Part shown: positions 30,548 through 36,781 of the stretch, piece after piece
Numbering within the stretch: position 1 is the first letter of the stretch
How the letters are laid out: the number at the start of each line of letters is the position of its first letter
Origin: Shouchella clausii
GTDB lineage: Bacteria; Bacillota; Bacilli; Bacillales; Bacillaceae_D
Direction of reading: 5' to 3'
Assembly (NCBI RefSeq): GCF_001598215.1
Contig: NZ_BCXJ01000005.1
Location: forward strand, 372,001-436,000
DNA: 64,000 bases
Position numbers and translations under genes: made by a program
Notes under the pieces: generated by a model
Database searches by the model: none
Seen by the model: only the letters and a program-made list of their open reading frames with translations
What the model was told of the DNA's origin: nothing

Positions 30548-31834
30548 TTGAAACGTAAATTCGCTCGTTTATTTGAAAACTATATACCCATTTGGGGTAA
30601 TAAAGACTATTTGTGGTTTCTATTAGTCTCTATGTTTTCATTGGCTGGAGATCTGGTTGCTTGGGTGATCACAACTTGGGTTTTAACAACTCAATTCGAC
30701 CATCCTGCCATTTACTTAACCACACTCGTCATACTCACTCAATCTGCTTACGCGATTATGTCTCCTTATATGGGGCATTTAGTAGACAAATGGGGACCGT
30801 TTACTAGCTTAATCTCTAGTACCGGAATTCGAACGGTTATTTTAACATTTTTATTTATATCGCTATTATATATCGAAGAGGGAATTAGCCCGTGGGTGAT
30901 TGTAGGACTGATGACTTTAGAATACATATTTGTTCCACTTAGCAAACAATCGGAATTCGTCATGATAAAGGTCTTAGTAAGAGAAGAAGAGCAGCTCATT
31001 CCGGCCAATGCTTTGCAAGGCATTCAATTTGATGCGTCTTACATTATCGGGCCTTTGATAGGTGGCTTATTTGTATCTACAATTGGCATTTATTACGGCC
31101 TCGTTCTTAACATGGCTTCCTTTCTTTTTCTCGGTATTGTCATGCTAATCATTGCTCAGAGAAACAAGGATTATAAAGACTACTATAAAATTGAACAAAA
31201 CAATGACGAACAAACAAAACCAAAAACATTTATAAACTCCCTAAAAACAGGGGTTTTGTTTATTGTAAAGACACCCCCTATGCTATCCATCTTGCTTATA
31301 GGATTTTTGTGGAATTTATTTGTATTTGGGCCGATTGAAGTACTTTACCCTATTTTCACCGTTGACGTTCTCGAAAGTAACGGATTTGTTTATGGATTAC
31401 TAATGTCTGTAAACTCAGTAGGCTTTATATTAGGCTTATTTTTGGCGGGCAATATTAAATGGAAAGTTCCTTTTGCTATGACGATGGGGATATTGATAGG
31501 TCTACATGGCCTCCTATATTTCTTTATAGGAATTGTACCGAATGTCGTTTTCGTATGTGTCATTCTTTTTTTAGGCGGTATTGTCATTGCACCTACCGAT
31601 ATTTTCTCCAAAATGATACGCCAAAAAATGATTCCTTTTCATATGCTTGCTGGAGTCAGTTCGGTGATTGCTTTTTTCAGCTTTATAAGCAAGCCTATCG
31701 GTGCTTTCCTTGTAGGCTCATTAATAAACGCTTATGGGAATGAATACTCCGGTTACATCATGGCGTGCCTCGGTTTTATTTTGTTCATAGTTTGTATGAT
31801 CATTTCATTCAGGCCAGTTATGAAAAAGATTTAA
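30548..31834 (+). CDS. MFS transporter (MFS_3 / macrolide-efflux-like)
   Basis: 428 aa with about 12 membrane segments. The family's first loop motif is seen as MSPYMGHLVDKWG near residue 75 and a NALQGIQFDASYIIGPLIGG segment near 145, typical of MefA/ transmembrane-secretion-effector-like exporters. The start is TTG behind AGAGGGGA; there is no nearby ATG. The substrate cannot be told. It stands alone with its own promoter and terminator. Confidence 0.85.
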   Translation: MKRKFARLFENYIPIWGNKDYLWFLLVSMFSLAGDLVAWVITTWVLTTQFDHPAIYLTTLVILTQSAYAIMSPYMGHLVDKWGPFTSLISSTGIRTVILTFLFISLLYIEEGISPWVIVGLMTLEYIFVPLSKQSEFVMIKVLVREEEQLIPANALQGIQFDASYIIGPLIGGLFVSTIGIYYGLVLNMASFLFLGIVMLIIAQRNKDYKDYYKIEQNNDEQTKPKTFINSLKTGVLFIVKTPPMLSILLIGFLWNLFVFGPIEVLYPIFTVDVLESNGFVYGLLMSVNSVGFILGLFLAGNIKWKVPFAMTMGILIGLHGLLYFFIGIVPNVVFVCVILFLGGIVIAPTDIFSKMIRQKMIPFHMLAGVSSVIAFFSFISKPIGAFLVGSLINAYGNEYSGYIMACLGFILFIVCMIISFRPVMKKI

Positions 31835-31848
31835 TGTCCGCATTAAAA

Positions 31849-31878
31849 AAAACAGCTTAAAAACAAAAGCTGTTTTTT
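31849..31878 (+). terminator. Terminator after the MFS gene
   Basis: AACAGCTT and AAGCTGTT form a stem followed by TTTTT; the A-run upstream could make it bidirectional. Confidence 0.9.
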
Positions 31879-32148
31879 ATTTCGATTGCCGTCTGGTGGA
31901 TTGTTTTTAATGTACGCTTGGATACTCACGGTCCCCTTACCCAAAGCACTACCTTCCACTTCCATTTAAACAATCATTTCTCCCCCTCAAAAGACAAAAA
32001 GCAACTTCATTCCTCGTTATTTCTACAGAAACGACAAAAATTAACTAGCTGCGTATTGGGAAAATCAGAAATTAGCAGAAAGTTGTTGATTTGTGTCATT
32101 TGCTGTACTACCATTTAAATAAGCCAAACCACAAAAGGAGGGAAGATC

Positions 32149-33234
32149 ATTCAACAACCTGTAATTGCAATTGCCAATAACGGTGTATTGCAGAAAGAAC
32201 AAATTACAGAACAATTGATGAAAGACCTCGCAAACAACCATCCAGAACTTTCATTTGAACAAGTGTTGACAATGATGAAGAAAACGCTGCCGAATGATTA
32301 CGTTCCTTTAATGAATATTTATGCCTTACACGTTAAAAGACTCCGACATGTGCAAGATGCATTTGAGTACGCGAACTTGTTTAGGCAAGTTGACACATTA
32401 GGAAAAATGATCCAGATCCATGAAAATGATGATTTATTGCAAGAATGGGTCCAAGTCTATCGGTTCTTCTATGATTTTTTGCCCCATTTAAAAATCGATG
32501 ATGTTTTGATCCGTAATATCCGAAATTTATTCGGCTTAGTCAAACATCCCCAATTGCGAATGAGATTAGAGATTGCTGAACTAAATTATTTTGACAATCA
32601 CGGTAGCATCAATAATTTAACACCCATGATGAAACAATTTAAAGAACAATTTAAAACGATGCCTAGTGGATTTTTCAAAAGTGCACTTGCAGCACGGGTG
32701 ACTTTGCTTGCAGGCAATGCTAGCTTATTCGGCGATGGAGACTATGAGGAAGCAGAACGTTGTTATTTAGCCGCCACAGTAATAGAGGCCATTCCCGATG
32801 TACTTCTGGTCACTGCTTATCATGGCCTTGGGCTTGTGTATTTAAAAGACAACAGGCAACAATGCTTAGATGCACATCAAAAAGCTCTTTTTTACGCACA
32901 ACGCTCTAAGTTGGATCATTATCATCAGAACTTGGAGTATGACTATATCCCGTTTGTGAAAAATATGCTCGGCGAAATTTTCGACATTGACCATGTGATG
33001 CCGAAAGAACAAGCACATCAATATGTGGTTAGGGGCGAAACCCGAAAAGCTTTAGAAATCATTTCCCAACTAGAGACGCCTGGAAAAAAAGACGCACATT
33101 TGCTGTTTTATAAAGCAAAAGCACTTAAAAGTATTCCCTTGTTTTTCGAGGCGATTAAAGCTTTTTCGTCGGAGGGATACACCCATATGATTGGATTTGC
33201 GGAAAAAGAAATTAAAAAAATCAAATTTTTTTAA
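32149..33234 (+). CDS. AimR-like TPR receptor of the RRNPP group
   Basis: 361 aa all-helical protein, starting with an apparent ATT codon placed 6-7 bases after AGGAGGG; a TTG at 32188 (348 aa) is the alternative but has no binding site. Repeated helix pairs (for example AERCYLAATVIEAIPDVLLVTAYHGLGLVYL) are TPR-like. The C-terminal segment (EQAHQYVVRGETRKALEII ... FYKAKALKSIPLFFEAIKAF) follows the C-terminal pattern of AimR, the phage arbitrium receptor. An N-terminal HTH as in AimR is not evident in the ~34 residues before the first TPR-like helix. The next gene encodes a small exported peptide, the usual partner. Confidence 0.65.
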   Translation: MQQPVIAIANNGVLQKEQITEQLMKDLANNHPELSFEQVLTMMKKTLPNDYVPLMNIYALHVKRLRHVQDAFEYANLFRQVDTLGKMIQIHENDDLLQEWVQVYRFFYDFLPHLKIDDVLIRNIRNLFGLVKHPQLRMRLEIAELNYFDNHGSINNLTPMMKQFKEQFKTMPSGFFKSALAARVTLLAGNASLFGDGDYEEAERCYLAATVIEAIPDVLLVTAYHGLGLVYLKDNRQQCLDAHQKALFYAQRSKLDHYHQNLEYDYIPFVKNMLGEIFDIDHVMPKEQAHQYVVRGETRKALEIISQLETPGKKDAHLLFYKAKALKSIPLFFEAIKAFSSEGYTHMIGFAEKEIKKIKFF

Positions 33235-33250
33235 GAAGGAGTTAATTTAC

Positions 33251-33373
33251 ATGAAAAAATGGTTTGTAGTATCTTCAACTCTTGTCGTTCTTTTTTCCTT
33301 TTCTCTTGGATCATTCCCTACTGAACAAAGCTCTGAAATTACCACACAGGCTAAACCAGGACAGCTCCTTTAA
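33251..33373 (+). CDS. Secreted signalling-peptide precursor (AimP/Phr-like)
   Basis: 40 residues starting ATG behind AAGGAG, 16 bases after the receptor stop. A MKKW start and a hydrophobic core (VVSSTLVVLFSFSLGS) form an export signal. The tail TTQAKPGQLL is short and polar. By analogy with AimP, whose last six residues are the mature signal, KPGQLL is a candidate active peptide. Position, size and layout support the call; sequence alone would not. Confidence 0.65.
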   Translation: MKKWFVVSSTLVVLFSFSLGSFPTEQSSEITTQAKPGQLL

Positions 33374-33383
33374 AATTTATGTG

Positions 33384-33412
33384 CCCCAAACCTTCTTCAA
33401 GGCTTGGGGTTT
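33384..33412 (+). terminator. Terminator of the receptor/peptide pair
   Basis: CCCCAAACCTT pairs with AAGGCTTGGGG, followed by TTTCTATT. The T-run is weak. Converging bpsB transcription could use it too. Confidence 0.65.
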
Positions 33413-33422
33413 CTATTCGTTC

Positions 33423-33992
33423 TCACACCAACCAAAACCGCTTCTTCTCCTTAAATCGTTCGCCGTAGTCTGTCTCTCCTTGCAAGGCTGCCTCTTCGAT
33501 GGGAATCCGGATCGTCAGCATGACCGCATTTAATAGACTAAACACAATAGCCGTCCAATACGCTTGAAACAGCAATGGGACAAAAGCGATTTCGGCCACT
33601 ACGACCATGTAATTGGGATGGCGCAAAAAGCGATAGGGCCCTTTTTCAATGACTGGCGCTTCTGGCAACACGATGATTTTCGTGTTCCAATATTTACCGA
33701 GGGAGGAAAGCGCCCAGATGCGTATGATTTGGGCAAGGACGACAATGGCAAGGGGAATCGCGCTCCAACGCGAAAACCCTATATTGGATAATGTCACTTC
33801 GATCAGCAGCGAAATAAAAAAACCACAATGCAGCGCAACCATCCATGGATAGTGGGCTGTCCCCGCTTCAACGCCCCCTTGTGCTTTCAGCCAACGTTCG
33901 TTTCCTCTCGCTACCCTTACTTCCACGAGGCGTTGAATGATAATCAGTGCAATCATAATATAGGCCCATGTCAATGGAGGCCACCTGCCCAT
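33423..33992 (-). CDS. bpsB: Isoprenylcysteine methyltransferase-family alkylpyrone O-methyltransferase
   Basis: 189 aa membrane protein with about five hydrophobic segments. The ICMT-family C-terminal motif appears as GPYRFLRHPNYMVVVAEI, with a late conserved pair of Glu (IPIEEAAL). In B. subtilis BpsB (YpbQ) methylates alkylpyrones made by BpsA. Here it overlaps the end of bpsA by 22 bp, so the pair is kept. Confidence 0.88.
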   Translation of the reverse strand: MGRWPPLTWAYIMIALIIIQRLVEVRVARGNERWLKAQGGVEAGTAHYPWMVALHCGFFISLLIEVTLSNIGFSRWSAIPLAIVVLAQIIRIWALSSLGKYWNTKIIVLPEAPVIEKGPYRFLRHPNYMVVVAEIAFVPLLFQAYWTAIVFSLLNAVMLTIRIPIEEAALQGETDYGERFKEKKRFWLV

Positions 33993-36043: not shown

Positions 36044-36155
36044 ATTCCTAGTAAGCTTGCTCCTCCAAGCTGCTCGCCATTATTCATAAACCAGCCTTTT
36101 TTCCCATACATTGAATTAATGCTAGATTCCATATGAAAGGAAAAGAGGCGTTTTG

Positions 36156-36781
36156 ATGTATCGGCCCCATTCGCAAGCGTCAACTGAGCTTTTGACTAAA
36201 CGGTTATTCCTTAGGCTGCCACTGCCTGGCGACGGGTTTGCTTTGTATCAAGCGCTCCAGGCTTCCAGAAAAGAATTGATACCCTGGATTCCATGGGTGG
36301 AGAGAATGGCATCGCCAGAGCAAGCTGAACAAGGTGTACAGCAAGCACATGTTGATTTTTTGCAAAAAAAGCGTTTCATTTCCACTTATTTGAGCAGCGT
36401 TCCGGCACTTTTGTCGGCTCCTGCGGACTCCATCATATTAACTGGGATGTCCCGCGTATGGAAATGGGGTATTGGATCGATAGCCGATTTGCTGGAAAAG
36501 GCTATATGACTGAAGCGGCAAAAGCGCTTATGTCCTATGCCTTCTTTACACACTATACCCACCGCCTTGAGATTCGCTGTGATCGAAACAACAAAAAAAG
36601 CCGGGCGATTCCTGAGAAGCTCGGCTTTATGCTTGAAGCGACATTGCTAGAAAACGAACGGAGCCCACATACAGGAGAACTGATGGATACGTGCATTTAT
36701 ACAGCTTTTCATCCGTCTGTCTCCCGGCCACCTGAGTCTATTTCGGGAAAGCAAAATAGCGCTTTGCATTATAGTAGCTAA
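36156..36781 (+). pseudogene. RimJ/RimL-type N-acetyltransferase broken by a frameshift
   Basis: The frame starts ATG behind AAAGAGGCG and reads TKRLFLRLPLPGDGFALYQAL and PWIPWVER, typical of ribosomal-protein-serine acetyltransferases. At an A7 run (36364-36370) the family sequence moves to another frame: FHFHLFEQRSGTFVGSCGLHHINW, MEMGYWIDSRFAGKGYMTEA (acetyl-CoA loop) and KLGFMLEATL. Joined, the two parts give one full-length GNAT protein. The tail overlaps the end of uxaC on the other strand. Confidence 0.85.

Follow-up and report, generated by a model that had tools for sequence, protein, structure and literature searches.

A 64,000-nucleotide stretch of the Shouchella clausii genome (hereafter, the window; C5:372001-436000, in a genome of 4.66 Mb and 14 contigs) contains an AimR-family receptor gene followed at once by a small propeptide gene. 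On balance, this pair is probably a host-owned chromosomal quorum-sensing system that arose from an AimR-family receptor and acts through contact with a protein. At the level of sequence, several parts of this reading are shown: an AimR-family solenoid, an adjoining propeptide gene, the loss of the helix-turn-helix (HTH) core, purifying selection and a stable chromosomal site. With DNA binding lost, binding to a protein, by analogy with Rap, would be the most parsimonious output. The pair comprises the following features:

32149..33234, + strand: AimR-family receptor gene, 361 codons plus stop, with an ATT start (profiles, predicted fold and the ratio of replacement to synonymous substitution rates, dN/dS)
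32134..32151, + strand: Shine-Dalgarno sequence AAAGGAGGG with the receptor's ATT start codon (sequence; kept in 6/6 orthologues)
32149..32253, + strand: N-terminal 35 codons, at the position of the AimR HTH, with core helices incomplete (HTH-core profile, 2.1 bits; predicted helices)
32254..33231, + strand: tetratricopeptide repeat (TPR)-like solenoid with the predicted peptide groove N190/L193/F269/E287 (residue map against SPbeta)
33251..33373, + strand: propeptide (AimP-like) gene of 40 codons with a signal-like N-terminus (small open reading frame (ORF) rule, substitution counts)
33353..33370, + strand: C-terminal hexapeptide KPGQLL, candidate mature signal of inferred length (orthologue comparison)

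The receptor frame is closed 10 codons upstream of the ATT, and its first ATG, GTG or TTG is a TTG at codon 14, which has no Shine-Dalgarno sequence of note; a length of 361 residues therefore implies initiation at the ATT, which lies 7 nt downstream of AAAGGAGG. ATT start codons are rare, the known case being infC. Both the ATT and the strong Shine-Dalgarno sequence are conserved at a spacing of 7-8 nt in all six receptor orthologues, which include that of G011, another genome of this species, and two that are only 57-58% identical in protein. Translation from the ATT also fits the substitution pattern, because the closest informative pair (G006 and G009) shows seven synonymous changes to one replacement over the first 35 codons; the counts of other close pairs (1:1, 0:2 and 1.5:2.5) comprise too few changes to tell. 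The product is an AimR family member as judged from profiles (NCBIfam NF038310, 119.8 bits with a cut-off of 70; Pfam PF22871, 66.5 bits with a cut-off of 26.7; PHROGs phrog_1728, 114.4 bits) and from its predicted fold, a nine-TPR solenoid of the AimR type. Fold libraries listed no other family near AimR, and the absence of a family from these libraries proves nothing. Across six orthologue pairs, dN/dS values of 0.08-0.25 indicate that the receptor is under purifying selection.

The propeptide gene begins 16 bases past the receptor stop and encodes 40 residues ending in AKPGQLL, so that a TPR receptor adjoins a Sec-type propeptide gene, the arrangement by which RRNPPA systems are recognized. 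The hexapeptide KPGQLL is identical in four of the six orthologues, the other two ending in KPEQT; propeptides of the orthologues at 57-58% identity have little in common beyond the KP motif, their length of 40 codons and their distance from the receptor gene (16 or 14 nt). Small ORFs were recognized by a rule (28-65 codons, a Shine-Dalgarno sequence, a basic residue near the start, a hydrophobic core and a start from -15 to +120 of the receptor stop), the Sec signal being assessed with this simple rule rather than SignalP. The rule was positive behind 33 of 50 Shouchella AimR-family receptors (27/38 HTH-less and 6/12 HTH-bearing), compared with 1 of 160 control gene ends, so that the small ORF exceeds chance expectation, although the counts are not independent, since the 50 receptors are mutually related. 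Between genome G000 and G001 or G007, the propeptide gene differs by five or six synonymous changes to one replacement, and on these counts it is under constraint.

The predicted groove retains part of the peptide-binding apparatus of phage AimR. In the residue map, N202, L205, F276 and E300 of SPbeta AimR, whose roles are taken from PMC6458997, align with N190, L193, F269 and E287, the last being invariant in 22/22 rows. R228, D360, N206, T236 and N239 are not kept, D360 corresponding to Y344 and R228 to V218. According to that study, D360 pairs with the arginine of RGA-type peptides, D360 and R228 together hold the peptide arginine and carboxylate, and six peptide families end in RGA or VGA. 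KPGQLL contains no arginine, and the replacement of D360 and R228 by Y344 and V218 thus matches a peptide without an RGA end. The missing RGA end excludes the SPbeta group alone, other AimR clades having other ends.

Also lacking is the N-terminal HTH core. In SPbeta AimR, the HTH occupies residues 1-59, with N30, N32 and Y35 in recognition helix 3 (PMC6458997). The model of the window receptor has a helix at residues 3-11, mostly with a predicted local distance difference test (pLDDT) score below 50, followed by helices at 21-30 and 36-46; gaps stand opposite N30 and Y35, and Q22 opposite N32, in a part where the alignment is loose. An HTH-core profile gave the window receptor 2.1 bits, compared with 7.6-74.4 bits in leave-one-out scoring of 21 HTH-bearing AimRs (12 from Shouchella, 5 from phages and 4 others, some being near-copies of each other); 35 of the 37 HTH-less receptors scored at most 3.5 bits and the other two gave no score. 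On this sequence evidence, the core is lost. The original prediction, made from the DNA letters, had described a 361-residue TPR-like receptor following the AimR pattern, then, 16 bases on, a 40-residue peptide ending in AKPGQLL, and had supposed the N-terminal DNA-binding domain to be missing. Reading frames and profile matches agree with the former, and the HTH-core score and the unconserved contact residues bear out the latter. Conservation of the small ORF, proposed there as a check, is borne out by its frequency behind related receptors and by the KP motif; of the two profile comparisons suggested, AimR gave significant matches and Rap gave none, in that the Rap N-terminal domain RapH_N is absent from the receptor's Pfam matches up to E 1.

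From these features a mechanism can be proposed. The 40-residue propeptide would be exported by Sec, cut down to roughly its last six residues, presumably KPGQLL, and re-imported through an oligopeptide permease, and the mature peptide would bind the receptor groove. The receptor would not regulate through DNA binding of its own, unlike phage AimR, because its HTH core is gone. Instead, its N-terminal part (roughly the first 50-80 residues, which are kept during the exchange at sister loci described below) would contact a protein partner, and the peptide would alter or end this contact, as Phr peptides do with Rap proteins.

The HTH-less form appears to be a lineage of its own within the genus. 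AimR-family matches occur in all 13 Shouchella genomes and in 14 of the 398 Bacilli genomes sampled, and an HTH-less profile (A1) has matches above 300 bits in 8 of the 13. In a tree of 79 rows built on core columns (group counts omit 25 rows assigned to none), the Shouchella rows fall into a single group with G018 (100/98), within which the 37 HTH-less rows form a single clade (99/96); the phage row SpaA1 stands apart from the four SPbeta-group rows. Left out of the tree were G011a (an identical receptor), L148 (the same protein as L138), L143 (no open frame) and any rows with stops. Other receptors that look HTH-less, eight from family f8 and five from genus g5, are placed elsewhere, so that the HTH seems to have been lost more than once, with the caveat that their starts were chosen by script; the starts of four to five non-Shouchella rows (among them L144, L151 and L135) are probably too late, and the HTH state was not judged there. 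AimR-like proteins with short N-termini were seen in other parts of the class, in genus g5 (L092-L096) and in some of L134-L149 (family f8), and several g5 propeptides (for example, L092, L094 and L095) carry a repeated unit, probably repeated signals. Bacillus sp. JCM 19041 has two differing signal-like ORFs in tandem behind one receptor (G009c; L019, L034-type loci).

Some HTH-bearing Shouchella AimRs lie on mobile elements. Of the 12, 7 neighbourhoods were listed and 4 of these scanned; all four scanned are mobile elements, with FtsK (3), Replic_Relax, integrase (an intact gene and a fragment) or Toprim/primase genes. Against a clean split, HTH-bearing loci in G005, G011 and G012 have no mobile gene recognizable by eye. 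The window receptor had no tblastn match in phages or plasmids at E 1e-5, a result of little weight, as an HTH-bearing Shouchella AimR likewise had none in phages; the AimR of S. shacheensis matched one phage, SpaA1 (23.4%, 2 records). A single degenerate peptide pattern, a weak probe, hit 25 stretches of viral contigs with no relatives among them; in genome contigs, one pattern hit 74 stretches, of which 20 were relatives, all from Shouchella or Bacillus sp. JCM 19041.

The pair itself lies at a stable chromosomal site. Its flanks encode an MFS_1 transporter, the ICMT-type bpsB, the type III polyketide synthase bpsA, a MerR/TipAS regulator and two ATP-binding cassette (ABC) exporters, together with UxaC, a histidine kinase and a protein of beta-lactamase fold. 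Nine window proteins between 22.0 and 38.2 kb, encoded by part of the ORFs of that stretch, were scanned with Pfam, and none was a phage protein. The receptor sits between the ABC exporter pair and bpsBA in all six genomes with an orthologue, with the MFS gene adjoining it in four. All seven other Shouchella genomes have bpsBA with no receptor beside it, and in two of them, S. lonarensis and G012, the site is empty, the exporter pair lying next to bpsB (with one small ORF between in G012). The mobile carriage of arbitrium is thus not seen here, nor is an adjoining aimX: only 49 bases, containing a hairpin, separate the propeptide stop from the convergent bpsB, and Rfam gave no match in 31700-33600 (1,901 bases). 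The MFS and bpsAB flanks and the lack of phage genes noted in the original prediction therefore stand, and the comparison across related genomes that it called for supports a fixed site. Its broader claim, a chromosomal, non-phage version of arbitrium, holds as regards an AimR receptor with its own peptide gene, a chromosomal location and no phage genes found, and is not supported as regards the arbitrium circuit, an adjoining aimX being absent and D360 and R228 not kept. Two further features delimit the unit:

33384..33409, no strand assigned: inverted repeat, probable shared terminator of the convergent peptide gene and bpsB (identified by eye; not in the terminator-scan list)
31847..31878, + strand: terminator-like hairpin after the MFS gene, separating it from the receptor unit (terminator scan; 2 sites found, 1.7 expected by shuffling)

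A promoter scan gave no evidence (4 found, 5.0 expected). Regulation of bpsAB was rejected as a function, given that bpsBA occurs without the receptor in the seven other genomes, as was regulation of the MFS gene, which is beside the receptor in only four of six. Across receptors, no recurrent neighbour gene was convincing; a Gfo/Idh-type gene (named by eye) lies beside three receptors and beside the remnant L003. Elsewhere in the window, a GNAT-like gene (36153-36781) appears as two overlapping ORFs and is a single 209-codon ORF in G011.

At two sister loci, the part of the receptor that would carry specificity has been exchanged. Genomes G000 and G011, of one species, are 97-100% identical at locus b for roughly the initial 200 nt of the receptor gene. 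Identity is about 50% between nt 230 and a point some 260 nt beyond the stop, after which it is 100% again. G001 and G007 show the same pattern, and the alleles pair across species, that of G000 with that of G001 and that of G011 with that of G007. Locus d also differs between G001 and G007: their sequences diverge near nt 155 and become alike again some 160-200 nt beyond the stop. In each exchanged pair (L002/L050 and L016, L018 and L017, L030 and L042), the N-terminal part and the outer flank stay identical. The peptide gene falls within the exchanged stretch, and 50-80 N-terminal receptor residues are constant. Judged from these alignments, the exchange looks like pherotype switching. The window genome also carries a C-terminal AimR-like remnant (L003:1429-1740, contig C1) beside the Gfo/Idh-type gene, probably a broken locus d.

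The family has multiplied in S. lonarensis (G004), where a 2.6-Mb genome holds 16 AimR-family matches (15 full-length and one partial) dispersed among housekeeping genes. Three of these receptors (L035:1827-3239, L037:1905-3281 and L041:1749-3197) have lost the N-terminal HTH and carry a C-terminal GerE domain, a LuxR-type HTH; in the model of one, the GerE part has four helices with pLDDT values of 48-86. Rap N-terminal domains have 5-11 matches, fragments included, in 11 of the 13 genomes and none in S. lonarensis and S. shacheensis. As S. shacheensis has one AimR-like protein, the two Rap absences do not both accompany expansion. For Spo0F as a possible target in S. lonarensis, gene content gives no clear indication: among the eight genomes searched, Spo0A is found in all and Spo0B in five (four over the cut-off), with no Spo0B match in S. 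lonarensis, G002 and G008, and the Spo0B-negative G002 has 11 Rap matches.

Several observations weigh against a protein-contact receptor of this kind. Extending the HTH profile by 12 residues of the next helix blurs the separation of the two classes (13.9-88.8 bits for HTH-bearing and -1.9 to 13.3 bits for HTH-less receptors), and in several receptors from S. lonarensis the N-terminus, with 52-65 residues ahead of the core, matches the length found in HTH-bearing ones. At locus b, no peptide ORF in the G000/G001 allele satisfies the rule, the one ORF there, of 50 codons, falling outside it; exchange is confined to the sister loci, the window locus having one allele in the S. clausii group (96-100% identity), and the exchange borders may simply mark where homology permitted recombination. 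No partner was found, nor does any recurrent neighbour gene indicate one. The receptor could still be a DNA-binding regulator with a degenerate HTH, as membership in a family of transcription factors and the helix at 21-30, near the position of the SPbeta recognition helix, would allow; the core score, the poorly predicted first 11 residues and the fate of the contact residues described above make this unlikely. That the locus is what remains of a phage or mobile element in decay appears very improbable: the mobile genes beside the HTH-bearing relatives in the four scanned neighbourhoods and the broken copy of locus d in the window genome favour decay, but the receptor is intact and under purifying selection in all six orthologues, the peptide gene is kept as well, and the scanned neighbours include no mobile gene.

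A special case of protein contact deserves separate mention, in which the partner of HTH-less AimRs would be a LuxR-type (GerE) regulator bound in trans, and the S. lonarensis fusions would be Rosetta-stone evidence of that contact. RapF binds the DNA-binding domain of ComA, which offers an analogy for such a partner. However, the fusions could merely restore direct DNA binding in a MalT-like protein that needs no partner in trans, the window locus has no known linkage to a LuxR-type gene, the structural similarity (Z) to MalT could stem from the common solenoid alone, and the fused L035:1827-3239 has no Pfam AimR match at E 0.1, despite its match to the window receptor at 1.2e-50; we regard this partner as doubtful. 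A fuller scenario is quite unlikely as a whole: a mobile-element receptor captured by the host would have undergone a single loss of the HTH in the Shouchella lineage and become a constant N-terminal output bearing Rap-like exchangeable receptor-peptide cassettes, with a LuxR-type partner whose DNA-binding domain was fused on in S. lonarensis, where the family would replace the missing Raps. A host-owned pair acting through protein contact, whatever the partner, is the reading that we favour. AimR is known as a DNA-binding switch of phages, and here a host lineage holds receptors that are HTH-less, have multiplied and keep their peptides, and two of the loci show a swapped specificity part. 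This makes it testable whether loss of the HTH converts an AimR-type receptor into a protein-binding switch, and the fused and unfused forms provide a handle for a partner search.

Compared with known systems, the window pair resembles arbitrium (AimR-AimP(-AimX)) of SPbeta and phi3T in receptor family, fold, the adjoining downstream peptide gene and the signal-like propeptide, and its receptor has the four groove residues at positions matching those of SPbeta; it differs in lacking the HTH core, an adjoining aimX, phage genes, an RGA-type end and D360/R228. According to one survey (PMC9765709), 87% of AimR matches lie on mobile elements, propeptides were detected for only 11% of AimRs outside prophages and plasmids, and chromosomal AimRs are mostly regarded as peptide-less 'eavesdroppers'. 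Searches of open-licence papers returned none on arbitrium in clausii, on AimR in Shouchella, on RRNPP proteins in Alkalihalobacillus or on fusions of RRNPP tetratricopeptide receptors with LuxR; the family may nevertheless have been published. Rap-Phr differs in the three-helix bundle of RapH_N, which was not detected in the window receptor. A MalT-like solenoid with a C-terminal LuxR-type HTH is the architecture of the three S. lonarensis receptors, whereas the window receptor has no C-terminal HTH; to our knowledge, MalT is not a peptide receptor. Shouchella species were for a time classed in Alkalihalobacillus. In the accessible part of PMC12700828, HTH loss is named for Rap and subfamily 17 only, and a switch from DNA to protein binding through such loss is proposed as the origin of Rap. 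The same part describes a chromosomal RRNPPA 'subfamily 21' from Alkalihalobacilli that branches within AimR in the sequence tree. Like the window pair, subfamily 21 is chromosomal, AimR-related in sequence trees and found in alkaliphilic Bacillaceae, and it may include the family of the window receptor.
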